This document shows, piece after piece, positions 24,559 to 38,764 of a DNA stretch of 39,606 bases. Each line of letters starts with the position of its first letter. The stretch's first letter is position 1. Where the stretch lies: contig CACXKR010000020.1 in the NCBI GenBank assembly GCA_902768335.1, positions 1-39,606 on the forward strand. The letters are read 5' to 3'. The position numbers were made by a program, and so were the translations under genes. This DNA comes from an uncultured Erysipelotrichaceae bacterium (GTDB taxonomy: Bacteria; Bacillota_I; Bacilli_A; RFN20; CAG-826). The notes beneath the pieces were generated by a model. It was not told where the DNA came from. It searched no databases and saw only the letters and a program-made list of their open reading frames with translations.

Positions 24559-25818
24559 ATGAAAAGCGAAAGCAACAAACAATACGAAATAGTTAAGTTC
24601 AAACTCAATGATTCAGAAATGGATATTTTTGTATCGATTGAAGAAGAAACAGTGTGGCTATCTCGCCGCGATATCAGCCTTTTATTTCAAAAGGACAAAA
24701 CTGTTATCTCTAGACATCTCAAAAATGTCTTAAACGATGACGAAACCGTTAGACATTCAGTTGTTGCAAAAAATGCATTAACTGATGCAAAAATTGCACT
24801 AGTTCGCATAGAAGGTGGTAGAAAAGTCACAAGATTTATTAATGTATATAACCTAGATGTCATACTCGCAATCGGTCATCGAGTAAGGTCTCAAAACGGT
24901 ATATTGCTAAAGAACTTTTTAGAAGAATACTTAAAAGAATATTATAATAAAGTAGATAATTCCATTATCATTTATGATAATGGTGATATATCACTTCCTG
25001 TTAATATATCTCCAAGTGAAAACACTGTGTGGCTAAGCAAAGATCAACTTGAAATCCTCTTCAATACCACAAGACAAAACATCGAATATCATATCGAAAA
25101 CATCTACTCTCAAGAGGAATTAGAAGAAAGCTCAACATGCAAAGATTTTTTGCAAGTTCAACTCGAAGGAGACCGTAAAGTCACTAGAATAAGCAAGATG
25201 TATAACCTCGATATGATCATCTCGCTTGGCTATAGAATTAACACGAAAAACGGCATCACATTTAGGTGTTGGGCTACAAAAGTATTAAGACAATATCTAC
25301 TAAAAGGATATGTGATTGATGAGAAAAGAACTTTAGTGACCAATGAAAACTACCTTAACCTCATCCACGAAGTAAATGATATCAAGAAAGACGTTAAAGA
25401 TATCAAAGACAAAATAAACACCAATTCACTTGATCACCATATTGTCTATGAAGGTGAATACTATGATGGCTTCTCATTTATCAATAAACTTATCTGTTCT
25501 GCAAAACATGAAGTAGTGGTCATCGATGGTTATGCGGATGATTCAATCTTTGACTATTTTGTGAACTCAACACCAAATATCAAAAAGACAATTATCACCC
25601 ATAAAGTAAATAGAATATCTTCAGAAGTCTTAAGCAAGTTTGTTAAACAATACGGAAACATATCGATAAAAGAAGACAAAAGCTTCCATGATCGTTTTCT
25701 ATTTATCGATGATGACGTTTACATAATAGGTTCATCTTTAAATTCGCTTGGAAGGAGCACCAGTGTGATCAAATTCCTTGGATTCAACCCACTTAAAAAT
25801 ACAAATAATCAATCATAA
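24559..25818 (+). CDS. Double RhuM-domain protein with C-terminal PLD-like (HxRx4D) domain
   Basis: A 419-residue protein. Two copies of a RhuM-type domain occur in tandem: residues about 15-115 (EEETVWLSRRDISLLFQKDKTVISRH ... VRIEGGRKVTRFINVYNLDVI) and about 135-245 (ENTVWLSKDQLEILFNTTRQNIEYH ... LEGDRKVTRISKMYNLDMI). A helical linker leads to a C-terminal domain (about 290-410) with VVVIDGYAD, H377-D-R-F-L-F-I-D384 and IGSSLN, the PLD/nuclease pattern with Arg for Lys. This last domain is homologous to that of the ORF6N protein at 12175-13080. RhuM-like proteins are common in accessory regions; function is unknown. Confidence 0.8.
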   Translation: MKSESNKQYEIVKFKLNDSEMDIFVSIEEETVWLSRRDISLLFQKDKTVISRHLKNVLNDDETVRHSVVAKNALTDAKIALVRIEGGRKVTRFINVYNLDVILAIGHRVRSQNGILLKNFLEEYLKEYYNKVDNSIIIYDNGDISLPVNISPSENTVWLSKDQLEILFNTTRQNIEYHIENIYSQEELEESSTCKDFLQVQLEGDRKVTRISKMYNLDMIISLGYRINTKNGITFRCWATKVLRQYLLKGYVIDEKRTLVTNENYLNLIHEVNDIKKDVKDIKDKINTNSLDHHIVYEGEYYDGFSFINKLICSAKHEVVVIDGYADDSIFDYFVNSTPNIKKTIITHKVNRISSEVLSKFVKQYGNISIKEDKSFHDRFLFIDDDVYIIGSSLNSLGRSTSVIKFLGFNPLKNTNNQS

Positions 25819-25833
25819 TTCCATTGCATATTT

Positions 25834-25880
25834 TTTCCGGAAACGTAAAAAAATTAAATGGACTTCCGGACAAATATAAT
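25834..25880 (+). promoter_or_regulatory. AbiE operon promoter with repeated TTCCGG operator
   Basis: The palindrome TTTCCGGAAA (25834-25843) and a second CTTCCGGA (25863-25870) are 29 bp apart, about three helical turns. The second lies in the spacer upstream of -10 TATAAT (25875-25880). They fit operators bound by the AbiEi-type antitoxin, which in studied systems represses its own promoter cooperatively. Confidence 0.5.
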
Positions 25881-25970
25881 TTGTAATCTCATTGTTTTTG
25901 TAGAATGAAAAATTCAAAATATGTTGTTTTCTCCAGATAATCCAATAAAATAATATTACGAGGAGCAAAT

Positions 25971-26564
25971 ATGGTAATAACTACTTCGATATTAAAAAAC
26001 CAGTATAAAGACTACTCAAATCCTTTAGATAAAATCAAAAGAGAAGTTGATAGTGGTGCTTTAATACGTTTATACAAAGGACTCTATGAAACAAATAGAA
26101 ATGTTGATCCTTTCTTTTTAGCACCTCTAATCCTCTCCCCTTCATATTTAAGTTTTGAATGGGCTCTTTCTTATTATGGTTTGATTCCAGAAAAGGTTGT
26201 TGCAATAACCTCAGCATCTTTAAAAGTTAGGAAGAATAAAACATATATCAATTTCTTTGGAAGATTTGAATACAGTGATGTATCACCAGAAGTTTTTTCC
26301 GAAGGTCTTGCCAATCTTTCAGACGATGAATACACCGTTAGAATAGCCACTAAAGAAAAAGCTATATGCGATTCACTCAGTAAGTGGCGAGTGGTGAACT
26401 CGGTGAAAGAACTAAAAGAGCTTCTGTTCCAAGACAAAAGAATAGATGAAGATGAATTTAAAACTTGTGATTTTGGTCTATTACTTCGTTTAGCGTCACT
26501 ATATAAGAAGACAAATTTAACTTTGTTGAGCAAATTTATCAAGGAGGAACTATTAAATGAATAG
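25971..26564 (+). CDS. AbiEi-like antitoxin
   Basis: A 197-residue protein of the AbiEi/type IV antitoxin regulator group. A winged-helix N-terminus (residues 1-50; DKIKREVDSGALIRLYKGLYE) is followed by YLSFEWALSYYGLIPEKV, the conserved SHxSALxxHGL-like block, then YTVRIATKEKAICDSLSK. The N-terminal domain would bind the operator and the C-terminal domain counter the toxin. GAGGAG precedes the ATG. It overlaps the nucleotidyltransferase gene by eight bases. Confidence 0.87.
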   Translation: MVITTSILKNQYKDYSNPLDKIKREVDSGALIRLYKGLYETNRNVDPFFLAPLILSPSYLSFEWALSYYGLIPEKVVAITSASLKVRKNKTYINFFGRFEYSDVSPEVFSEGLANLSDDEYTVRIATKEKAICDSLSKWRVVNSVKELKELLFQDKRIDEDEFKTCDFGLLLRLASLYKKTNLTLLSKFIKEELLNE

Positions 26565-27423
26565 CGCACTCCAGGCCTTGCTTGAAAAATATAATCCAAA
26601 AAACAACACTGAAAGAGAAAATGCAATCAAGGAAATAATCCAAGAAATTGCTCTAGCTGGTTTATCCCGTGGTGGTTTCTTTAGAAAAGCTGCTTTCTAT
26701 GGCGGAACATGCCTAAGGATTTTTCATGGTCTAAATCGTTTTAGTGAAGACCTTGATTTCGCGCTGCTCGAGATGAATCCTTCGTTTGATATTAGCTTAT
26801 ATTTCCCATCTTTAAAAAAAGAATTCTTATCATATGGAATCGATATTGACATTGAAACCAAAAGTAAAAATGAGGATCACGCTATTCAAAGTGCATTCCT
26901 AAAAGGAAACACACTATTTCTTATGATGAATTTCTTTCCTAAAAGCGAGGAAGCCAAACGCTTCATTTCTTCGCAAAAAATAAAAGTAAAATTTGAAATC
27001 GATATCTTTAATCCTCGTGGCGGCACAACAGAATTTAGATACCGCATGTTACCATCTCCATATGAAATCCAAATATTTGATGAATCAACTCTGTTCGCCG
27101 GAAAGATTCACGCAATAATTTGTAGAGACTTCAAAAATAATGTTAAAGGTAGAGATTTTTATGATTATTTGTTCTATATCTCTCGAGGAAGTTCAATCAA
27201 TATAAAGTATCTAGAAAACAAACTTAAAAACAGTGGAAAGATTCGTTTTGATGAGACGCTAACTCTTGATATGGTTAAAGACCTTCTAAAAAATAAATTT
27301 GAAAAGGTAAATTATGAACTCGCCAGAAGAGATGTCTCGCCTTTCATCGAAGATCAAGATAGTCTCAAACTTTGGAAAAGAGAACTCTTCCTATCCACAA
27401 TTGATTCATTAAAAGCAGCATAA
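26557..27423 (+). CDS. AbiEii-like nucleotidyltransferase toxin
   Basis: A 288-residue nucleotidyltransferase-like protein (AbiEii/AbiGii/MenT family). Motif I GGTCLRI (G49-G50-T51) with RFSEDLDF (R61, S63, D65, D67) binds nucleotide and metal; motif II KVKFEIDIF (K145, D149); motif III AGKIHA (K183); motif IV KGRDFYDYLFYI (R199, D200, D203). Studied relatives transfer nucleotides to tRNA or other targets and act in phage abortive infection. Its ribosome binding site AAGGAGG lies inside the antitoxin gene. A terminator follows. Confidence 0.92.
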   Translation: MNSALQALLEKYNPKNNTERENAIKEIIQEIALAGLSRGGFFRKAAFYGGTCLRIFHGLNRFSEDLDFALLEMNPSFDISLYFPSLKKEFLSYGIDIDIETKSKNEDHAIQSAFLKGNTLFLMMNFFPKSEEAKRFISSQKIKVKFEIDIFNPRGGTTEFRYRMLPSPYEIQIFDESTLFAGKIHAIICRDFKNNVKGRDFYDYLFYISRGSSINIKYLENKLKNSGKIRFDETLTLDMVKDLLKNKFEKVNYELARRDVSPFIEDQDSLKLWKRELFLSTIDSLKAA

Positions 27424-27508: not shown

Positions 27509-27541
27509 TTGTAATTTTTATAATTCTAATTAGAATATAAA
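27509..27541 (+). promoter_or_regulatory. Promoter of surface-protein cassette 1
   Basis: -35 TTGTAA (27509-27514), 16-bp spacer, -10 TAGAAT (27531-27536), inside the 14-bp palindrome ATTCTAATTAGAAT (27523-27536). The word TAGAATATAAAG is shared exactly with cassette 2 (32606), where similarity between the cassettes begins. Confidence 0.45.
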
Positions 27542-27870
27542 GTAAGAGGTAGGGGGTGCTTATCTCTCTCCTGGTCAAAGAGAAATATAAACCTAATATC
27601 CTCTTAACTCTTAAGGAAAAACAATAAAAGCAGAATATCGATGCATAATATTCTCAAATAAAGGTTTCTCCTTATGAGAGTCGACGTAGTTAATAGTTGC
27701 CTATTTAGAGGTGTATCTCATTAACGAATCGACACACAACAGTTAATCTCTTTTTTATCTAGGCTCATCTAGGATGCCTTTTAATAGGAGGATTAACAAA
27801 GTTGTTCATAAGACCTCACGGACGCTTTTGATTCAAGTCCGGAGGAAGAAAAGAAAGGAGAAAAAATATT
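27542..27870 (+). ncRNA. Conserved structured 5' leader RNA, copy 1
   Basis: A long untranslated leader similar over its length to copy 2 (32617-32926). Readable stems: TCTCT/AGAGA around a CTGGTCA loop; a hairpin of CTCAAATAAAGG with CCTTATGAG (27653-27679); GTCGA/TCGAC (27680-27684 with 27729-27733) enclosing GTTAAT/ATTAAC (27689-27694 with 27720-27725) and a small GCCT/AGGT hairpin; GTTAATC/GATTAAC (27742-27748 with 27791-27797); CCTC-A-CGGAC with GTCCGGAGG (27814-27845), which holds an SD-like GGAGG. The real SD GAAAGGAG (27853-27860) follows. The middle stem differs in sequence from copy 2 yet pairs. The class is not one I recognise. Confidence 0.6.
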
Positions 27871-30800
27871 ATGAACAAATTATTTACAAAGATTGCCGCG
27901 TTAGCTTTAGGTGCAACGATGGCAGTCGGAGTAGGTGTAGCTGTTGGAAGCAATAAGGAAGTTGCTAGAGTTGACGCTAGTCCTGAAACAGGATACACTG
28001 CAGCAACAATGACCGCTGGTACAAATGGTTCTAGTTGTACAGTCAATACTTATAGCGGAATTAAAGTTGGAACATCTAAAGCTGGTGGAGACATGTCAAT
28101 TACAGTACCTTCTGGCGCTACTAAATTAGTTCTTTATGCTGCTGCTTGGAAAGGTGTAACTGGATTATCGTTAAATATTACAAAGACGAGTGGTGCTGCT
28201 AGTGCATCAATTTCGTCATCTTCCATTGCCTTGACTGCTGACAACGGAATATCAAATAATAGCCCTTTCACTTTAAGTGGAACTGAATCTAATTTTAGGT
28301 TTGAGTTAACTCTGTCAAATATAACAGCTAATACAGTTTATAAATTTACTAGTAGTGCCGCAAAACGTTTTGTGGTTTGGTCTGCTCAAACACAAGCTGC
28401 TACAACTTACACTATTTCGTATAATGCTAATGGCGGATCTGGAACTATGTCTTCAACAACTGGAACCAATCCTGCTGTTGCTGCATGTACTTTTACTGCT
28501 CCATCTAATAAGCAATTTAGCTACTGGCACACAACTTCTAGTGGTACAGGTGGAACAACTTATGCTGCTGGAGATACGCCAAAAAAGAATTTATCTCTTT
28601 ATGCTATTTGGGAAGATTTACCATCTGATCCATTTGTATCGTTAACTTTAACAAGTGGTTCCCCTGCATATAAGGGTTCAACTGTTACCGTTTCTGCTAC
28701 AACAGCACACCTCGAAGGTTCAGGATTAAACTGGACTGTGACATCAGGTTCTGTGACTGGAATATCATCAACTAATACATCCTTCACAGGAACTTTAGCT
28801 TCAACTGGTACAGTCACTATCAAAGCCCAAGATAATGGTGGTGATACTTACGATACAGTTTCAGTAACCGTTAACGCCGTTACCGTTTCGTTAGACGAAT
28901 CAGCAATTTCGGTTGCTCAAAGTGGCACCTCATCATTGACCGCAACAGTAAACACTGGTTCCGTAAATTGGTCTAGTAATAATGCAAAAGTTACTGTTGA
29001 AGCTGATTCTGGGAATGCATTAAAAGGAAATATTTCCGTTGCAGCTGATGCAACAGTCAGCTCAACCGCTACTATTACAGCAACGTCTACAGTTGATTCA
29101 AGTGTAAAAGCTACATGTACTGTTACAGTAAGCGAAAATCCATTTGCTTCATTTACAGTTGTAAAATCAACCAGTGGGGTAACAACAACCGGTGTTTATG
29201 CATTCAGTAATGATGGAACACATTACATTGGAAATATTGTTGATAGCTCTTATATCAGTTATCCAATAACATCTTCAAATCCTGAAAGTCTCGGATACTT
29301 TAGATTTGAAACAGCGACCAATGGTTACTATTTAAAATATGTTGAAAAGAACCCTCAAACAGGAGCGTGGGAAGATAAATCTTCTAACAAATATATTAAT
29401 AACGGTTCATCAACATCAATGTCTTGGTCAAATACCGCCTCTTCAATTTGGACTTTAAATGCTACTGGATCAGGAGATTCAGCTAGGGTTTATATCACAA
29501 ATAGTTCAAATCAGGGCAGACACTTAGGTTTAAACGGCAACAATCCATCTACAGCTACTCAAGTTAGAGCATATGCTTCAAGCAACATATCTAATAACTT
29601 GCCAGTTTATATTTATGAAGTTCCTCAAAATAAATTAGATGGTTTGACCGTTAGTGGGCAAACAACCACATTTACTGCTGGTAGTACATTCTCATTAGGA
29701 AATAATGCAGTTTTAACTGCTCATTACTCAAGTACAGGAAATACCACTGATTTAAGTGGTGGAACTATTTCTTACAAAATCAACAATGTATCTGTTACAA
29801 CGAGTACTGTTTTGGATCATGATACTCATAATGACAAATCCGTTGTTATTACTTATACTGACGCTGCAGGCGATGTGGCTAGCACAACAGCTTACACAAT
29901 TACTGTTAACTATAAACCTGCAGGTAGCATTAGTCTTAATCTAGATTCTGCTCCATTATCAATTGGTGGGTCAGTTTCATTAACTGCAACTGTTGGTGAT
30001 GAATATGCTGATGAAAATGATGTTTCATGGAGCACAACATCTGCTGGAATAGCATCTATTTCTGCCGCTAGTGGCACAAAAACCATTACAGTTACTGGCG
30101 TTAGCGCTGGAAGTGCAACAATCACAGCAACTGCAAACGGCCATTCAGCAACATGTGCTATTTCTGTTACCGCTGATCCAATTCTTAATTTAAAAGATTC
30201 TGGAGACAATATAATCAATGATGAAACGCTAGAATTCTTTACTGGTGATAATTCAGTTATGATTCAAGCTGTTTCTGAAAACGTTGCTAGCCCAGTTTAT
30301 TCTTGGGAAAACGAGGATGATAGTGTTGTCACAATTGATGTCGATGATGAATATTGCGAAGTTACAATTGTTGGTGCCGGAAATTCTGAAGTGTCAGTTA
30401 CAGTTGGCGCCTTAACAAGAACAGTTACATTTAGTATTACTCAATCTGGAGTTACTTCCTTAACACTTGACTCAAGTGTTCAAAGTGGTGAACTTTTTGA
30501 TGGCACATATAAAAACACATTGACATTAACTCCTACAGTTACCTTGGTTGGTAATGCTACTGGTGTTATTAACTGGTCAAGTAGTGATACTGAAGTTGCT
30601 ACAGTTAGTAGTGCTTCAACAACTGCCCCAACTGCAATTACAGTTACTGGTGTTGGTGAAGGTACTGCGACCATTACAGCTAGAAGTGCATATACACCAT
30701 CAATGAGTGCAACATTTGTTGTTACAGTTACTGCTGATGAAATTAATTCACTAAGTTGGACAAAGAGACCGAAATTCAATAGTGGTGCAACTGGATTCCA

Positions 30801-31920
30801 AACCATTTGGGCTGGAGAAACCACACTGGGCAATTTAATGGAACAAAATGGCTCTGACGGAATTGGTGTATTTGCCCCAAGTTGGAAGAGCGGAAAATCC
30901 GACTCCCCAACAATGGGAACTGGCGCGCATGATGTCCATATTGTTTTGTCCGATGTTGGCGGACCAACAAGCGAAGCTGGTTTAACACCATTGACATCAA
31001 GTTATGTTTTCCAATCTACAGATAATGGTAAATATGTTGTTGCTTTCTATGAAGGAAAAGCTTCTACAAACAATACACAACTATCAGTTACTAAATGGAG
31101 ACATGTTTGGGAATCTTCTACATTATCAGAAACATTTGATTATTCTGCAGGTGGTGGAAATATGTCGCAATCTGGTGACATCGCCACAGCCTCTATAGCA
31201 AAGAGTGGTTCAACTACAAATGAAGCTGATTCCTTAAGATTAGGCTCGGGTAGTGCAACTGGTACATTAACTGTAACATCTTCAACAAATCTCATTTCAA
31301 AAATTGAAGTTTGGGTTAAGAGCTACGGATCCGATAGTGCAACATTAAATGTTGGCACTGAAAATACAGGTACTATTTCTGCTGATGAATTTGAAAGTTT
31401 CGAATTTACATTTGACGATCCAGTTTCTTCCGTTGCAATGTCAACAACAGCTAGTAAGAAGCGTGTTTATGTTCAAAAAGTTGTTATTACTTCTGGTGGT
31501 TTAAATGATATTGGTAAATCTGCCGATTGTTTAGGCCTTGAAGTCTATATCGATACATATCTTCATATGTCCGATTACACAACCTCAGAAGGTTGGTGTA
31601 AAGACGAAGAGCACAACTACTACGGTAAGAATACTGAAACCGGTGCTAAGTACCATTTCAATCAATTAAATGCACACCAAAGATCGTTATTATCTTCTAA
31701 TAGTGCATATGCGGCTGAATGGGCTAGATTAAGCGCTTGGGCTGCAGCCAATGGTGAGTCTTTAAATAGTTCATCTATTTTAGCTGCTGCTCGTATTAGT
31801 CCTTTGATCAATATTGTCGGAAGTACAAATGCCGTGGCAATAATTGTAATTGTATCAGTGATTTCAATTACATGTATTGGTGGTTACTTCTTCCTTAGAA
31901 AAAGAAGAGAACAAAATTAA
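27871..31920 (+). CDS. Large secreted Ig-like surface protein 1 with C-terminal membrane anchor
   Basis: A 1349-residue protein. Signal peptide at residues 1-35, almost identical to that of the paralogue at 32927. An InlB/Flg_new-type repeat lies at about 179-250 (TISYNANGGSGTM...SLYAIWE). Several bacterial Ig-like (Big_2-type) domains follow (about 254-335, 336-424, 690-770, 860-960; motifs such as VNWSSNNAKV and TVTGVSAGSATITATANG), with a Gly/Tyr-rich beta-domain at about 425-590. A Cys-containing helical domain precedes the end, which is a hydrophobic segment then GGYFFLRKRREQN. There is no LPXTG. Likely an adhesin or surface-layer protein. Composition is Thr/Ser/Ala-rich and few Cys. Ligand unknown. 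Confidence 0.85.
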   Translation: MNKLFTKIAALALGATMAVGVGVAVGSNKEVARVDASPETGYTAATMTAGTNGSSCTVNTYSGIKVGTSKAGGDMSITVPSGATKLVLYAAAWKGVTGLSLNITKTSGAASASISSSSIALTADNGISNNSPFTLSGTESNFRFELTLSNITANTVYKFTSSAAKRFVVWSAQTQAATTYTISYNANGGSGTMSSTTGTNPAVAACTFTAPSNKQFSYWHTTSSGTGGTTYAAGDTPKKNLSLYAIWEDLPSDPFVSLTLTSGSPAYKGSTVTVSATTAHLEGSGLNWTVTSGSVTGISSTNTSFTGTLASTGTVTIKAQDNGGDTYDTVSVTVNAVTVSLDESAISVAQSGTSSLTATVNTGSVNWSSNNAKVTVEADSGNALKGNISVAADATVSSTATITATSTVDSSVKATCTVTVSENPFASFTVVKSTSGVTTTGVYAFSNDGTHYIGNIVDSSYISYPITSSNPESLGYFRFETATNGYYLKYVEKNPQTGAWEDKSSNKYINNGSSTSMSWSNTASSIWTLNATGSGDSARVYITNSSNQGRHLGLNGNNPSTATQVRAYASSNISNNLPVYIYEVPQNKLDGLTVSGQTTTFTAGSTFSLGNNAVLTAHYSSTGNTTDLSGGTISYKINNVSVTTSTVLDHDTHNDKSVVITYTDAAGDVASTTAYTITVNYKPAGSISLNLDSAPLSIGGSVSLTATVGDEYADENDVSWSTTSAGIASISAASGTKTITVTGVSAGSATITATANGHSATCAISVTADPILNLKDSGDNIINDETLEFFTGDNSVMIQAVSENVASPVYSWENEDDSVVTIDVDDEYCEVTIVGAGNSEVSVTVGALTRTVTFSITQSGVTSLTLDSSVQSGELFDGTYKNTLTLTPTVTLVGNATGVINWSSSDTEVATVSSASTTAPTAITVTGVGEGTATITARSAYTPSMSATFVVTVTADEINSLSWTKRPKFNSGATGFQTIWAGETTLGNLMEQNGSDGIGVFAPSWKSGKSDSPTMGTGAHDVHIVLSDVGGPTSEAGLTPLTSSYVFQSTDNGKYVVAFYEGKASTNNTQLSVTKWRHVWESSTLSETFDYSAGGGNMSQSGDIATASIAKSGSTTNEADSLRLGSGSATGTLTVTSSTNLISKIEVWVKSYGSDSATLNVGTENTGTISADEFESFEFTFDDPVSSVAMSTTASKKRVYVQKVVITSGGLNDIGKSADCLGLEVYIDTYLHMSDYTTSEGWCKDEEHNYYGKNTETGAKYHFNQLNAHQRSLLSSNSAYAAEWARLSAWAAANGESLNSSSILAAARISPLINIVGSTNAVAIIVIVSVISITCIGGYFFLRKRREQN

Positions 31921-31952
31921 TCAATAATCAATAGATTATAGTTTAATAAAAT

Positions 31953-31986
31953 AAGGACTTCTGGGTTATCCCTAGGAGTCCTTTTC
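31953..31986 (+). terminator. Terminator of surface-protein cassette 1
   Basis: Stem AAGGACT/AGTCCTT (31953-31959 with 31977-31983) with inner GGG/CCC, then T4. The stop codon of the convergent NUMOD1-like gene lies within it. It resembles the terminator of cassette 2. Confidence 0.8.
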
Positions 31987-32379
31987 TATATAGATGAATT
32001 TTGTCTTATTCTTTGATGAATATTTTCCATTTAATCGATCTCTTAAGGTGTGGGGATCGATTTTATTTTCTTTAGCAGCTTTCACTAACGAAGGATATAT
32101 CTCTAATATCTTTCCATCTTCACTAACCTTCGCTACTCTTTTTGGCTCAGGAGATATCTTTCTAACTTCAAGAGGTTCTATCTTAGATGGAACGTTGTTT
32201 TTATCTACCCTTCTCCAAAGGAGATTCTTGATAGTTAAAACATCTCCTCTAGTAGCCCTATCTATTGTTCGTTTATAGACATGTTTTGCTCTTGATGCTG
32301 AAATAGCAGTGGGATAAGTTCTCACCAAAGTTCCATCAAGTTTATAGCAAGCAATAACCGTATCTTTGTTCCTAGACAT
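31972..32379 (-). CDS. Orphan NUMOD1-like repeat protein
   Basis: About 135 residues from the ATG at 32379 (a GTG at 32403 is also in frame). Two NUMOD1-like repeats are visible: IACYKLDGTLVRTYPTAISA with a following helix-turn-helix-like segment, and VAKVSEDGKILEIYPSLVKA with KENKIDPHTLRDRLNG. NUMOD1 modules bind DNA at the C-terminus of homing endonucleases, but no GIY-YIG or HNH nuclease domain is present or recognisable nearby. It could be a remnant or a stand-alone DNA-binding regulator. It is convergent to cassette 1 and lies between the two surface-protein cassettes. Confidence 0.65.
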   Translation of the reverse strand: MSRNKDTVIACYKLDGTLVRTYPTAISASRAKHVYKRTIDRATRGDVLTIKNLLWRRVDKNNVPSKIEPLEVRKISPEPKRVAKVSEDGKILEIYPSLVKAAKENKIDPHTLRDRLNGKYSSKNKTKFIYIEKDS

Positions 32380-32403
32380 ATATAGGCAATATAACCCTCT
32401 CAC

Positions 32404-32600
32404 CTAAGCGTCACATCTATACATCGCATAGGGATTTTTCAATATGGAAAATCTTCATCTTTTCTCTTGACAACTTGTAGGGGGCTCATAAGAGAAAATA
32501 GAGGCAAAGAAGAAAGAAAAAGAAAAAAATATAATATTATCTATAATATTATTTAGCACTCTACCATCGTGAGTGCTTGCTTCTTCTTCTTCTTCTTCTT
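32404..32600. other. Gene-free stretch with polypurine tract and hairpins
   Basis: No gene is visible. It contains a polypurine run (about 32500-32529, AAAGAAGAAAG and A-rich), a repeated ATAATATTAT pair (32530-32552), and the hairpin AGCACTC/GAGTGCT (32555-32561 with 32571-32577). The polypurine run is complementary to the TTC tract that follows, so a large cruciform or a purine-pyrimidine non-B structure is possible. Confidence 0.45.
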
Positions 32601-32601
32601 C
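32581..32601 (+). repeat. Trinucleotide repeat (TTC)7 in the promoter of cassette 2
   Basis: Seven uninterrupted TTC units end four bases before the -10 TAGAAT (32606-32611). No proper -35 is present; the tract occupies that place. Cassette 1 has a normal spacer there instead. Such repeats can change length by slippage. Confidence 0.8.
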
Positions 32602-32605
32602 TTTA

Positions 32606-32616
32606 TAGAATATAAA
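32606..32616 (+). promoter_or_regulatory. -10 region of surface-protein cassette 2
   Basis: TAGAATATAAA (TAGAAT 32606-32611, TATAAA 32611-32616) identical to cassette 1. The -35 position falls within the TTC repeat. Confidence 0.4.
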
Positions 32617-32926
32617 GCGAGATAAGGGGAGAATTTGAACGTCTGGTCAACGTGAGAATAATCCTTCAAATCTCAAGCTTGTTAAGAAGAAAAACGAAGT
32701 TAAAGAACAACGGTGCACATTGCTCTCAAATAAGTTTTCTCCTTAATGAGAGGTCGACGTAGTTAATAGTTGCCTAAAAAGAGGCGTATCTCATTAACGA
32801 ATCGACGAACATTTTTAGCGTAACCCTATCAAATAGGATTTTGGTTCGCTAAAAGAAATTGTTCATAAAACCTCACGGATAATTTCGTTTCAAGTCCGGA
32901 GGTTAAAAGAAAGGAGAAAACAAATT
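32617..32926 (+). ncRNA. Conserved structured 5' leader RNA, copy 2
   Basis: Counterpart of copy 1. Stems: ACGT/ACGT around CTGGTCA; CTCTCA/TGAGAG (32723-32728 with 32747-32752); GTCGA/TCGAC (32753-32757 with 32802-32806); GTTAAT/ATTAAC (32762-32767 with 32793-32798) with a GCCT/AGGC hairpin inside; TTTTAGCG/CGCTAAAA (32813-32820 with 32847-32854); CCTC-A-CGGA with TCCGGAGG (32871-32879 with 32895-32902). Nearly invariant unpaired words are GTAGTTAATAGTTGCCT, AACGAATCGAC and TTGTTCATAA. The SD AAAGGAG (32910-32916) follows. Stem sequences differ from copy 1 at several places while pairing is kept. Confidence 0.6.
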
Positions 32927-35900
32927 ATGAACAAATTATTTACAAAAATTGCCGCACTTGCTTTAGGTGCGACAATGGCTGTAGGCGTAGGTGTTGCTGT
33001 TGCAAGTGGAAATGAAGCTAAGACTGCTGAAGCTACAACCGCCGGAACTGCTTATACTATTAGTTCAACGGCCGCTACCACAATCACAAATAACGGCCTC
33101 TATGTTTTAAAACAAGGTACGAATGGTTTTACTGGTAGTATTGCAAGTAACTGGGCTCAAACAACCACAACTGCATCTAATTATTTTATTCTCAAAGCTG
33201 TTGGATCTAGTACTTCATTCACGTTACAAGATATGGATGATTCTACTAAACAAATATATTGCTCAGCAGCCAAGAAGATTGCTTGGGGTTCAACTGGTAC
33301 AACATTCAAGTTCATGACTGGTAAAAAGACCACTTCGATTTCGAATGCTGTTGGCAATAGTACGGTTGGCACTTTGCAATACAACTCCTCTGGTGGTTTT
33401 AGACCATATACGTCTGCCACTGGTGCCGATGCTCAATTGTTTGCTGCTACTCCAGCATCTACAAAATTAACTGGAATCGCTTTATCCGGGACTGGCGTTG
33501 ACACATCTAGTGCTCCAGCATATAGCATTGAGTTTAATGCTAGTGATTCTACGGCCCATACAATTAACGTAGGTTTGACACCATCAAATGCTACCGACCA
33601 AAAGGTCAATATCACATCAACCGGTGGAACATCTGGATTAGTTACAAGAAGTACATCCCAAGTCACTTGTTCAAGTGGTTCAGGGTCGTTCACTGTGACA
33701 AGTAAAGGCGATGCTGGTTATGAAGTTTTGACCCTTAAGGGTAATACAGAAACATCCGTTCAAGCGTACTTGACCGTTACAGTACTTGATGATAGCAAAA
33801 CCTATTACTCAGTCAGTTACACTGGCTTACATGGTAACCTTTCAAACACTTCGAGCGTTGTTGAAGGTGATCCTTTGGATACTTATTTAGTCCCAGATAC
33901 TCATTATCATTTACCTACTTCTATTACACTGACCATGGGTGGAAGTACTTTGACTCCGGGAACGGATTACGATTACGACAACGAAACTGGCAGAATTCAA
34001 ATTCTCGAAGTTACTGGCGATGTTGTTGTTTCAACAAGCTGTGTCGAAGATAGCAAATACACTATTACATATGTTCACGGTGATCACGGAACTGGTGATG
34101 ACTATGTTGTTAATAATGTTTATGCCGGCTCATATACATTAGCAACATTTGCTACAGCTGGATTTACTGCTTCAAGTGGTTATTCATTTAAGAAATGGAG
34201 TGTTGGAGGTGTTGAATACGCTGAAGGTGCTTCAGTTACTATTAGTGGAGCCACAACAGTTACAGCTGTCTATCAAGAAGTAACAACATACACAATTGTT
34301 ACAGATGTTAGCAAGCTTGCTGATGGCACAAAATTCGTTCTTGTTGGCTATGCTTCTTCGACTTATCGAATCGATAAGGATTTGAATAGTGGTCATATTA
34401 AAATGAATGCTGTTACAGCCGCTACAACAATTTCAAACGGAACTTCATCTGGTAGTACGTTAGTTACCACAGAAGCGGATATTTATACTTTAAAAGGCTC
34501 TGCTGGTGCTTGGGAAATTGTTGATGCCTCTGGTAATTATTTACAATTCACAGGAACATCAAATGGTAACGACAGTTTTACAGATTCTAGTAGTGCGGAT
34601 ACTAAATTTTCAATCAGTTTGACTGATGGAAAAGTTATTATTGCAAGTAATTCCCGTTCTAGTCGTTATTTGTATTACAACACTTCGACCGGGGACTTAA
34701 GAAACTATGGAGGAACATCTTCATCTGTTATTGCATGTTATATGTTTGCTTACATCCCACCTCAAAATGAGTTAAGTTCAATCGCTCTTTCAGGTGATTA
34801 TAAGACTTCATTTGCTAGTGGTGATACATTCTCATTCGGTGGTACTGTAACTGCAAGTTACACAATTGCAAGTGATGCAAACGTCACAAGCAGCACAACA
34901 TTCCATTTAGATTCTTCTAGTGGAACAAATATGTCTGGTGTAACCATGACACATGCTGCTCACGATGGTCACACCATCTATGCCAAATACACCGAAGGTG
35001 GCATTACAAAAACCGCCTCTTATTCAATTACCGTTTCAAATGCTCCAGTAAGCAGTGTTTCTATTGAAACACACGCTGCTGAAGTTGGTCTTGAAGAAGA
35101 CTATTCTATTTCAGGTATTACTCCAACCGTTTTACCAGCTGATGCTGTTAAAACAACCGAATGGGTTGTCTCTGCTAACACTGTCAGCGATGATTATACT
35201 TGGAATGGAACAACATTAACTTCTGGTCAAACCGAAGGTACCATTACCTTAAGATGTCGTTCAACTGCTGATAACAGTAAATATGACGAATTAGTAGTTA
35301 CTGTTACAGGTGATCCAACTGCTGAATTTATCCCTGCATCCGTTTCTGGCTATGTTGGCAAAGGCGCATCTGTTGCCTTTACTTACGGAAACATAGATGA
35401 CACAAGTAAAATTGCCGTTTCATCAAGTAATGCTTCTGTTACTGTTGGAGCAATCACCGCTTCGGCTGGTGAAGGAAGCGTTGCCATTACATTTGTATCC
35501 GCTGGTAGTGCTACATTATCCATCTCCTACGATGGTGGTTCTACTTTAGATTCCATCACTGTTACTGTTAGTGATGATTCAGTTACAGCATTAACATGGT
35601 CTGCTCCAACAATAAAAGTTTATAGTGGTGCATCCACAACTGTCTCTGATGCAAGTTCATGGAATGTTCATTACACCATGGCTAGCGGAGACTATGGTAG
35701 CCTCCTTTACGGAGAATACACCCTTAAATTAGGTGGAAGTACAATTACTCTTCCACACACTTGGGATGCTACAGATGATGGTAAAGTGCTCAGCATTGAA
35801 TATGCCGGATATACTTCACCAACAACTTCGACTGTTGATGTTACACAAACATTACAAGCTGTTAATGCAAGCGATATAAGTGCATGGGATTATACATTCA

Positions 35901-36799
35901 CTGCAAAAGCTTGGAGTGCTGCCGGTAGTGCAACTCTCGATGATAAAGAATGGACTATGTCTGGAACAGATGATGGTACTCAATATTTTGGCTACGATGC
36001 AACTAAAGGACAACAATTTGGTTCTGGTTCTCACCCATATAGTGACTTAACACTATCATCATCTGCCTTTAGCGGAACAATCGCTTCTGTTACTGTTTAT
36101 ACATCAGGTGCAAAAGACATTGATGCAACAATTCAGGTAAGCGTCGGTGGTACAACCTATGGCGATGCTCAAACAATTACAGCAACAAATACTCCTTATA
36201 CATTTGATTTAGGTGGTAAATCTGGAACAATTTCGATTGACTATGTCAATAGTTCCTCTAAAGCCATTTACATCAAAGAGATTGTTGTAAACACTGTTTC
36301 TGGTTCACACAATATTGCCAATGCCTCAGGACACGAAGCTGCGCAAAAAGCTGTTGTTAAATTCGCAAAGACATTTAATGCTGCAATGGATACGACTGCT
36401 GGTTGCACAACCAATATGAGTTCTGCTTGGTCGACAGCCACAACTGCTTGGAATACATTCACAAGCGAAGCTGCTGCTTTAGGTTCAACTGAAGAAGCAT
36501 ACGCGAAGAATTTAATCAAGTATGCTACAGCTCAATGGACCGAAAACACTGATAGTGATTACAGTTATTGTCTTGAACGTGCGATGGCAACATATGAAAA
36601 ATGTGTTTCTTCATATGAAATGACCGCCTTTATGAGCACGGTTAGACCAGTTGGCCGTTCAGTCAATATCAATCCAATCAGTATCATTGGTAGCAAATCT
36701 GATTTCAATGTAATTTCAATTGTTGTGATTACATCAGTTATCTCATTAACCGCTATTGGAGGATATTTCTTCTTACGTAAACGTAAAGAAAATATCTAA
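32927..36799 (+). CDS. Large secreted Ig-like surface protein 2 with C-terminal membrane anchor
   Basis: A 1290-residue paralogue. Signal peptide MNKLFTKIAALALGATMAVG is the same as in protein 1. The interior differs: an N-terminal beta-domain, Big_2-like domains, two InlB/Flg_new-like segments (YSVSYTGLHGNLS; TITYVHGDHGTG), a Gly/Ser-rich beta-domain near residues 460-610 (resembling that at 425-590 of protein 1), more Ig-like domains and a discoidin-like stretch. A helical Cys-containing domain (AAQKAVVKFAKTFNAAMD...) precedes NPISIIGSK, a hydrophobic segment and GGYFFLRKRKENI. No LPXTG. Probably an adhesin or envelope structural protein, under the same leader as its paralogue. Confidence 0.85.
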   Translation: MNKLFTKIAALALGATMAVGVGVAVASGNEAKTAEATTAGTAYTISSTAATTITNNGLYVLKQGTNGFTGSIASNWAQTTTTASNYFILKAVGSSTSFTLQDMDDSTKQIYCSAAKKIAWGSTGTTFKFMTGKKTTSISNAVGNSTVGTLQYNSSGGFRPYTSATGADAQLFAATPASTKLTGIALSGTGVDTSSAPAYSIEFNASDSTAHTINVGLTPSNATDQKVNITSTGGTSGLVTRSTSQVTCSSGSGSFTVTSKGDAGYEVLTLKGNTETSVQAYLTVTVLDDSKTYYSVSYTGLHGNLSNTSSVVEGDPLDTYLVPDTHYHLPTSITLTMGGSTLTPGTDYDYDNETGRIQILEVTGDVVVSTSCVEDSKYTITYVHGDHGTGDDYVVNNVYAGSYTLATFATAGFTASSGYSFKKWSVGGVEYAEGASVTISGATTVTAVYQEVTTYTIVTDVSKLADGTKFVLVGYASSTYRIDKDLNSGHIKMNAVTAATTISNGTSSGSTLVTTEADIYTLKGSAGAWEIVDASGNYLQFTGTSNGNDSFTDSSSADTKFSISLTDGKVIIASNSRSSRYLYYNTSTGDLRNYGGTSSSVIACYMFAYIPPQNELSSIALSGDYKTSFASGDTFSFGGTVTASYTIASDANVTSSTTFHLDSSSGTNMSGVTMTHAAHDGHTIYAKYTEGGITKTASYSITVSNAPVSSVSIETHAAEVGLEEDYSISGITPTVLPADAVKTTEWVVSANTVSDDYTWNGTTLTSGQTEGTITLRCRSTADNSKYDELVVTVTGDPTAEFIPASVSGYVGKGASVAFTYGNIDDTSKIAVSSSNASVTVGAITASAGEGSVAITFVSAGSATLSISYDGGSTLDSITVTVSDDSVTALTWSAPTIKVYSGASTTVSDASSWNVHYTMASGDYGSLLYGEYTLKLGGSTITLPHTWDATDDGKVLSIEYAGYTSPTTSTVDVTQTLQAVNASDISAWDYTFTAKAWSAAGSATLDDKEWTMSGTDDGTQYFGYDATKGQQFGSGSHPYSDLTLSSSAFSGTIASVTVYTSGAKDIDATIQVSVGGTTYGDAQTITATNTPYTFDLGGKSGTISIDYVNSSSKAIYIKEIVVNTVSGSHNIANASGHEAAQKAVVKFAKTFNAAMDTTAGCTTNMSSAWSTATTAWNTFTSEAAALGSTEEAYAKNLIKYATAQWTENTDSDYSYCLERAMATYEKCVSSYEMTAFMSTVRPVGRSVNINPISIIGSKSDFNVISIVVITSVISLTAIGGYFFLRKRKENI

Positions 36800-37735: not shown

Positions 37736-38764
37736 ATGAACGAATTAGAAAAATGTAATTATATTGATCAAGAGTTTTACAAGTCAGTAAAAGAAGTACT
37801 AGAACAAGCTAGAAAAAGAGTTTACCGAAACATCCAAAATGAAATGGTTCTTACCTACTGGCAAATTGGTAAGATGATTGTGGAAAAGCAAGGTGGTCTA
37901 GAACGTGCTAAATATGGTGATAGGTTGATTAAAGAACTTTCGATTCAATTAACCAAAGATTTTGGCAAAGGTTTTACCATTTCAAACCTAAAATATATGA
38001 GACAGTTTTTTCTCACATTTCAAAAAAGCCACGCACTGCGTGGCCAATTGACTTGGACGCATTATAAACTTATAATAAGTTTAGATAATGAAAAAGCTCG
38101 TGATTTTTATATCAAAAAAGCCGTCGAAGACAATTGGAGCACACGTCAGTTAGAAAGGGCGATTCATACCTTCTCCTACCAACGATATCTTTTAAGTAAA
38201 GGTAATCACGATGTGGTGGATGACACCGTTAAAAAAGAAGTCATCGATCCAAAAGATATAATTAAAGATCCATATGTCCTAGATTTTGTAGGGCTTAAAC
38301 CAGATTCTTCATTTTATGAAAAAGATTTAGAACAAGCTTTGATTACACATCTTAACGAATTCCTTCTTGAACTAGGAAGTGGTTTTGCTTTTGTAGCAAG
38401 GCAAAGAAGATTCGATATGGATGGTAGAAATTTCTATGTTGATCTTGTTTTGTATAATTACAAACTCAAATGTTTTGTTTTAATAGATTTGAAACGTGGA
38501 GATTTGACTCATCAAGATATCGGTCAAATGCAGATGTATGTTAATTATTACACAAGAGAAATGATGGAACCTGGAGATAACCCTCCAATAGGCATCATCT
38601 TAAGTGCGGATAAAAGCGATATGCTAGTGAAATACACTCTTCCACTTGATAACAAGCAGATATATGCCTCTAAATATATGCTATATCTTCCAAAGGAAGA
38701 AGAATTACAAAAAGAAATGAATAATCAATTAAAAGCATTGCAGGATTTTAGAAGTGATGATTAA
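37736..38764 (+). CDS. YhcG/DUF1016 family nuclease-like protein
   Basis: A 342-residue protein. The N-terminal DUF1016 domain (about 10-165; LTYWQIGKMIVEKQGG, KGFTISNLKYMRQF, QLTWTHYKLII) is followed by a PD-(D/E)XK-like domain (about 185-335): PYVLDFVGL, EKDLEQALITHLNEFLLELGSGFAF, FYVDLVLYN, FVLIDLKRG (the Asp and Lys of the D...DxK core), then GIILSADKSD. Members are predicted nucleases found with restriction-modification or mobile genes; their exact function is unsettled. A perfect hairpin (GCCACGC-ACT-GCGTGGC, 38028-38044) lies inside the coding region and encodes HALRG. RBS AAAGGAA (37721-37727). Confidence 0.9.
   Translation: MNELEKCNYIDQEFYKSVKEVLEQARKRVYRNIQNEMVLTYWQIGKMIVEKQGGLERAKYGDRLIKELSIQLTKDFGKGFTISNLKYMRQFFLTFQKSHALRGQLTWTHYKLIISLDNEKARDFYIKKAVEDNWSTRQLERAIHTFSYQRYLLSKGNHDVVDDTVKKEVIDPKDIIKDPYVLDFVGLKPDSSFYEKDLEQALITHLNEFLLELGSGFAFVARQRRFDMDGRNFYVDLVLYNYKLKCFVLIDLKRGDLTHQDIGQMQMYVNYYTREMMEPGDNPPIGIILSADKSDMLVKYTLPLDNKQIYASKYMLYLPKEEELQKEMNNQLKALQDFRSDD

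Follow-up and report, generated by a model that had tools for sequence, protein, structure and literature searches.

The two large surface-protein genes in the window (the whole stretch of 39,606 nucleotides that was analysed) are preceded by members of a structured leader RNA family, a previously uncatalogued class that accompanies a single kind of surface protein within a single bacterial family. The leader is probably a bistable translational switch acting in cis, combined with a clamp on the start codon and a hairpin whose design suits RNA homodimerization. A regulatory role, as the original prediction proposed, is supported by covariation, which is strong in the P2 stem, the P3 helix and the anti-start element once more homologues are aligned. 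The family thus has what is generally expected of a cis-regulatory leader, namely a structure that is conserved ahead of one class of genes and has covariation support; the effect on expression is inferred, in the absence of RNA or expression data.

The leader RNA family and its distribution

The two leaders can be aligned end to end, starting in the -10 region and running as far as the signal peptide (blastn E 1.9e-33 for the second copy). No further copies were found by blastn in the 0.99-Mb, 27-contig assembly. Because the homology starts at the -10 box, the structured part is probably transcribed, and a transcription start downstream of it, which would have refuted the original prediction, is not indicated; no transcript start has been mapped.

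A covariance model made from 13 divergent leaders and run on 279 genomes of the order recovers leader 1 with E 1.6e-42 and leader 2 with E 7.5e-40. In total, 66 matches lie in 42 of the 279 genomes, with one to three per genome, and span nine genera, a false match included. All matches but that one fall inside the window's own bacterial family, and all readable downstream starts but one belong to genes whose signal peptide is of the same type, or to an obvious relative; this confinement ties the RNA to one kind of surface protein and one family. The sole match outside the family, G253, sits before a SecE-like gene and was rejected as a false positive. Additional leaders (L022, L027, L055 and L406) were missed by the model. 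Searches with blastn returned only fragments from the same genus, and divergent leaders with the same plan were found by reading upstream of genes sharing the start; more than 30 divergent homologues define the conserved core. A gapped pattern searched against all GTDB contigs gave mostly chance matches and four true leader matches in three records, one of them being either the genome that holds the window or one almost identical to it, and in viral contigs it gave nothing passing the leader screen.

No Rfam 15 family reaches the gathering threshold in the leaders, and a permissive scan yields only chance-level matches (best ≤26 bits), in agreement with the earlier statement that no known class is recognised. 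The match to mycoplasma_FSE is due to chance (25.7 bits against a threshold of 88), and a group I or II intron and a T-box were considered as identities and dropped. In genus g43, genes with the same signal peptide (L308 and L309) carry a different conserved leader (GGTCATAGTAAGGTTGACC...), also with TTGTTCA.

Overall organization of the leaders

From 5' to 3', the leader comprises P1, a linker with the 5' strand of P3, P2, the 3' strand of P3, the junction arms, the anti-start element, PC, the Shine-Dalgarno sequence and the start codon (Table 1).

Table 1. Positions of the leader elements, genes and promoter features in the window.
Feature	Position	Strand	Description or basis
Leader 1 promoter-like TTGTAA-N16-TAGAAT	27509..27536	+	Consensus scan; leader homology begins at -10
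Leader RNA 1, whole	27542..27870	+	Alignment; covariance model
Leader 1 P1 hairpin	27563..27583	+	Loop CCTGGTCAA at 27570-27578
Leader 1 P3 5' strand (anti-anti-SD) TTAAGGAAA	27611..27619	+	Co-variation test
Leader 1 P2 hairpin, 7 bp + 9-nt loop	27632..27654	+	Palindrome ATGCAT at 27641-27646
Leader 1 anti-SD = P3 3' strand, TTTCTCCTTA	27665..27674	+	Complementarity and co-variation test
Leader 1 junction arm 1 (GTCGA/TCGAC, GTTAAT/ATTAAC, GCCT/AGGT)	27680..27733	+	Fold; sequence
Leader 1 junction arm 2 (GTTAATC/GATTAAC)	27742..27797	+	Fold
Leader 1 anti-start element GTTGTTCATA, complementary to TATGAACAA at start codon	27801..27810	+	Pairing tests
Leader 1 PC hairpin CCUC-A-C...GGAGG	27814..27845	+	Fold
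Leader 1 Shine-Dalgarno region AAAGGAGAAA	27854..27863	+	
Surface-protein gene 1	27871..31920	+	1349 aa, signal peptide, Big_2 domains, C-terminal membrane anchor
CIRCE operator AGCACTC-N9-GAGTGCT upstream of leader 2	32555..32577	+	Same motif before hrcA-grpE and clpB in genome
(CTT)8 tract	32580..32603	+	Between -35-like TTGCTT (32577) and -10-like TATAGAAT (32604-32611)
Leader RNA 2, whole	32617..32926	+	Alignment; covariance model
Leader 2 P1 hairpin, loop CTGGTCA	32639..32653	+	Sequence
Leader 2 P3 5' strand TTAAGAAGAAAA	32682..32693	+	Co-variation test
Leader 2 P2 hairpin	32704..32726	+	Palindrome GTGCAC at 32713-32718
Leader 2 anti-SD TTTTCTCCTTAA	32735..32746	+	Complementarity and co-variation test
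Leader 2 junction arm 1	32753..32806	+	Fold
Leader 2 junction arm 2 (TTTTAGCG/CGCTAAAA)	32812..32855	+	Fold
Leader 2 anti-start element ATTGTTCATAA	32858..32868	+	Pairing tests
Leader 2 PC hairpin	32871..32902	+	Fold
Gene 2 Shine-Dalgarno region	32910..32919	+	
Surface-protein gene 2	32927..36799	+	1290 aa, same signal peptide as gene 1

The stems listed in the original prediction are all present in the sequence, namely TCTCT/AGAGA versus ACGT/ACGT around CTGGTCA, GTTAATC/GATTAAC versus TTTTAGCG/CGCTAAAA, and GCCT/AGGT versus GCCT/AGGC. The words it regarded as unpaired have partners after all: a single long arm is built from GTAGTTAAT/ATTAAC together with GTCGA/TCGAC, and TTGTTCATA complements TATGAACAA in the start region. 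Its GGAGG is found in the last hairpin, but the Shine-Dalgarno sequence actually in use is AAAGAAAGGAG, approximately 10 nt before the ATG. The most conserved parts, i.e., the P2 hairpin with its palindrome, the co-varying flanks of P2 and the anti-SD, were absent from that description; the present analysis adds the identity of the conserved helices, the competition for or masking of the ribosome binding site by two of them, and the palindromic nature of the P2 loop.

The junction arms vary among leaders in both sequence and number. Their terminal loops (e.g. 27680-27733 and 27742-27797) are often hexaloops of the AUNUAG type (ATTTAG, ATCTAG, ATATAG). In P1, the stem sequence is free to change while the loop stays near UGGUCA. 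This word, located in a nine-nucleotide loop (27570-27578, 32639-32653), is self-complementary with G-U pairs, and the P1 loop could act as a second contact. Such self-complementarity depends on two G-U pairs and is lost in variants like UAGCCA.

The P2 hairpin and its palindromic loop

Across 36 distinct versions of the P2 stem, 92.5% of the cells are standard pairs, compared with 66.8% in shuffles, and double changes occur at five of the seven pairs. A six-base palindrome occupies the loop of all 59 P2s placed by the model (GTGCAC in 30, ATGCAT in 27 and ATCGAT in 2), and the variant leaders carry TGCGCA, CGATCG and TGGCCA. All three palindrome positions change on both sides, with 100% self-complementarity over the 36 rows. 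Six of these rows were picked by palindrome scan or by eye; the less biased evidence comprises the 59 model-placed P2s and a search with the variant framework in which the loop was left as N6, where the leader matches are all palindromic (3/3; TGCGCA, TGCGCA, CGATCG) and the non-leader matches are not (0/6). The palindromic loop and the P2 stem are demonstrated by this comparison of leaders, with two caveats. Most P2s have a TGCA core, and an internal closing pair would equally explain the R-Y covariation of the commonest loops. Furthermore, some variant palindromes (TGGCCA) came from the palindrome scan, and their hairpins may be P1 rather than P2.

Two nucleotides precede the palindrome and one purine follows it, leaving a half-base offset from the stem axis. 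The 3' loop flank is A or G in 36 of 36 distinct P2s, and the 5' flank is mostly a purine. A nine-nucleotide loop with a central six-nucleotide palindrome and flanking purines is the sequence criterion of a DIS-type hairpin, and P2 meets it. Because the loop is laid out like the dimerization loop of HIV-1, it is probably the place where two leader copies kiss; homodimerization is the best explanation for a palindromic loop that sits on P3, a reading without dimerization data behind it.

P2 with its palindromic centre also makes a long dyad-like sequence, such as a DNA operator (an inverted repeat for a dimeric regulator) would have in place of an RNA hairpin. This possibility can practically be dismissed: the stem and palindrome axes are offset in the manner of an RNA DIS loop, the stem often contains G-U pairs (7/36 at one pair), and the P2 flanks co-vary as a helix. 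Regulation in trans is a more serious rival, though still an unlikely one, in which a protein or small RNA would bind the P1 (UGGUCA) and P2 loops and throw the switch, making a homodimer unnecessary. The nearly invariant P1 loop over varied stems agrees with such binding. Paralogous leaders of one genome carry different P2 palindromes in 15 of 21 genomes (p 0.066, not significant), which would also suit different partners. However, a search of 24 genomes of the genus finds the P2-like hairpin essentially only at the leaders, with no separate copy in the window's genome, and a changing protein site need not remain self-complementary.

Proposed competition between P3 and the Shine-Dalgarno sequence

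The flanks of P2 pair together to form P3. Cognate flanks pair at -16.2 kcal/mol, compared with -10.7 for partners permuted between leaders, a difference not reached in any of 20000 permutations (0/20000; overall z about -9 to -10, and -9.1 with 18 strict clusters). The pairing is exemplified by GTTAAG/CTTAAC, CCGAAAG/CTTTCGG and GTTTGAAA/TTTCAAAC, and is well supported by this covariation. Simultaneously, the 3' strand of P3 usually retains TTCTCC or CCTTTC, in two registers, each complementary to GAAAGGAGAA. Complementarity between anti-SD and Shine-Dalgarno exceeds that of shuffles (mean z -2.31 over 26 leaders; control strand 0.04), and a conserved C of the 3' strand, often mismatched in P3, lies opposite a G in the Shine-Dalgarno. 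This second helix shows no covariation among leaders because the Shine-Dalgarno is constant, and absence of the helix would give the same result; masking is therefore inferred from the retained complementarity, not from covariation.

When the 5' strand is left out of the predicted folds, the anti-SD usually pairs with the Shine-Dalgarno, closing the junction. In full-length folds at 37 °C, the anti-SD is mostly in P3, so that the Shine-Dalgarno is mostly free. The 37 °C folds are also what bears on an RNA thermometer, which would rely on one masking helix melting within a physiological range. The predicted energy gaps between the two states are small and within the model error. Computationally, the leader has the mutually exclusive helices, one masking and one freeing the Shine-Dalgarno, that are the helix criterion of a translational riboswitch.

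Such exclusive helices with masking of the ribosome binding site, together with the conserved P1 and P2 loops, speak for a ligand-sensing riboswitch, in which P1, P2 and the arms would form a small-molecule aptamer, the choice between P3 and the Shine-Dalgarno would serve as the expression platform, and the palindrome would be incidental or structural. However, only surface-protein genes lie downstream, with no metabolic gene found; the junction arms vary freely, unlike a binding pocket, and no conserved pocket is seen; and the loop remains palindromic as its sequence changes. A riboswitch is decidedly improbable on these grounds.

The anti-start element

The element GTTGTTCATA is complementary to the start region and co-varies with the start codon and the next Asn codon. 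With AAC as the second codon (ATGAAC), the element is TTGTTCAT in 41 of 41 leaders (scored as G or A; 41:0), and with AAT (ATGAAT) it is TTTATTCAT in 15 of 15 (15:0), an association with a Fisher value of 6e-14. The AAC/AAT change is synonymous. A single leader with ATGAATTTA carries AAATTCAT. The permutation z for the anti-start:start pairing is -10 (63 leaders, with redundant ones kept in). These statistics are inflated by relatedness; the AAT type is nonetheless present in four or more genera, and the pairing can be taken as established at the level of comparative sequence.

It is common for the long leaders of abundant surface-layer proteins to be structured, and the junction arms are strong hairpins, as would suit a constitutive stability or processivity element that shields a long, highly expressed mRNA from decay without switching. 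A co-varying pairing at the start codon that follows synonymous changes and a conserved complementarity to the Shine-Dalgarno would be unnecessary for stability, and this explanation carries very little weight.

A possible mechanism of the switch

In the favoured bistable switch, the anti-SD strand 3' of P2 would pair with the 5' strand to form P3, leaving the Shine-Dalgarno free, or alternatively with the Shine-Dalgarno itself, closing the multi-arm junction and hiding it. The separate anti-start element would clamp the start codon. P2, seated atop P3, would present the palindrome, and two leader copies would probably kiss, biasing the choice of state. The data support one strand choosing between P3 and the Shine-Dalgarno, plus a second lock at the start codon; that leaders dimerize in cells, that dimerization is coupled to the switch and that the P3 state is ON are inferences. 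A bolder version, for which we see a little less than an even chance, holds that surface-protein mRNAs dimerize through the DIS-like leader loop, that the dimer sets the switch so that the cell directly reads how concentrated that one transcript is, and that the different palindromes of the paralogues keep them apart.

Surface-protein genes and their surroundings

Both surface proteins have the signal peptide MNKLFTKIAALALGATMAVGVGVAV, of the family type MNK...GVGVAV, and surface protein 2 has no Pfam match. Upstream of leader 2, a CIRCE element (the HrcA operator) is followed by a simple-repeat spacer between -35 and -10, an arrangement noted at window 32555-32611 and at L325, L330 and L114. 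Other surface-type genes in the genome have CIRCE together with a (CT)n repeat at the corresponding position; (CT)n precedes two other genes, one of them lipoprotein-like, and (GAA)n is used in relatives. The hrcA-grpE and clpB genes that share the motif were named from translated sequence. CIRCE and the repeat spacers suggest heat-shock-repressed, phase-variable surface genes. Between the two surface genes lies a small ORF with a weak NUMOD1 match (31972-32403, minus strand), and a stretch resembling it recurs beside leaders in a relative (L114:1-230, minus strand). The surface genes are flanked (24559-27423 and 37736-38764) by an AbiEi/AbiEii pair, a RhuM-type gene and a DUF1016/YhcG nuclease gene.

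Comparison with known systems

The known cases of control by mRNA-mRNA pairing are mainly retroviral, along with a small number of animal mRNAs. If the proposed switch is correct, the leaders constitute a natural, varied set of bacterial leaders in which such pairing may control translation, linking RNA dimerization to gene control in a way that can be tested, adding an uncatalogued leader class, and explaining how a gut bacterial lineage with tiny genomes may tune its large surface proteins.

In translational riboswitches, as in the leader, an anti-SD pairs with either an upstream strand or the Shine-Dalgarno in a mutually exclusive manner; in contrast, the leader has no recognised aptamer or metabolic gene and possesses a palindromic kissing-type loop and a start clamp with co-varying codon choice. 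ROOL, GOLLD and OLE are bacterial RNAs that form homo-oligomers (PMC12286853); they are large non-coding RNAs, whereas the leader is a short mRNA element tied to its own coding sequence. In Drosophila, the oskar and bicoid mRNAs form homodimers via kissing loops, with a six-nucleotide palindrome in oskar (PMC7357161), but these act in the 3' UTR and in eukaryotic mRNA localization. In shape, P2 resembles the HIV-1 DIS (SL1), whose loop carries the palindrome GUGCAC flanked by conserved purines, in a 5' leader that also contains anti-AUG pairing (PMC7357161). P2 shares its 7-bp stem, nine-nucleotide loop, six-base palindrome with two nucleotides 5' and one purine 3', location in a 5' leader and, in some leaders, GUGCAC itself. 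However, P2 belongs to a bacterial mRNA leader without homology to HIV-1, its palindromes vary, and the helix beneath it is in competition with the Shine-Dalgarno.
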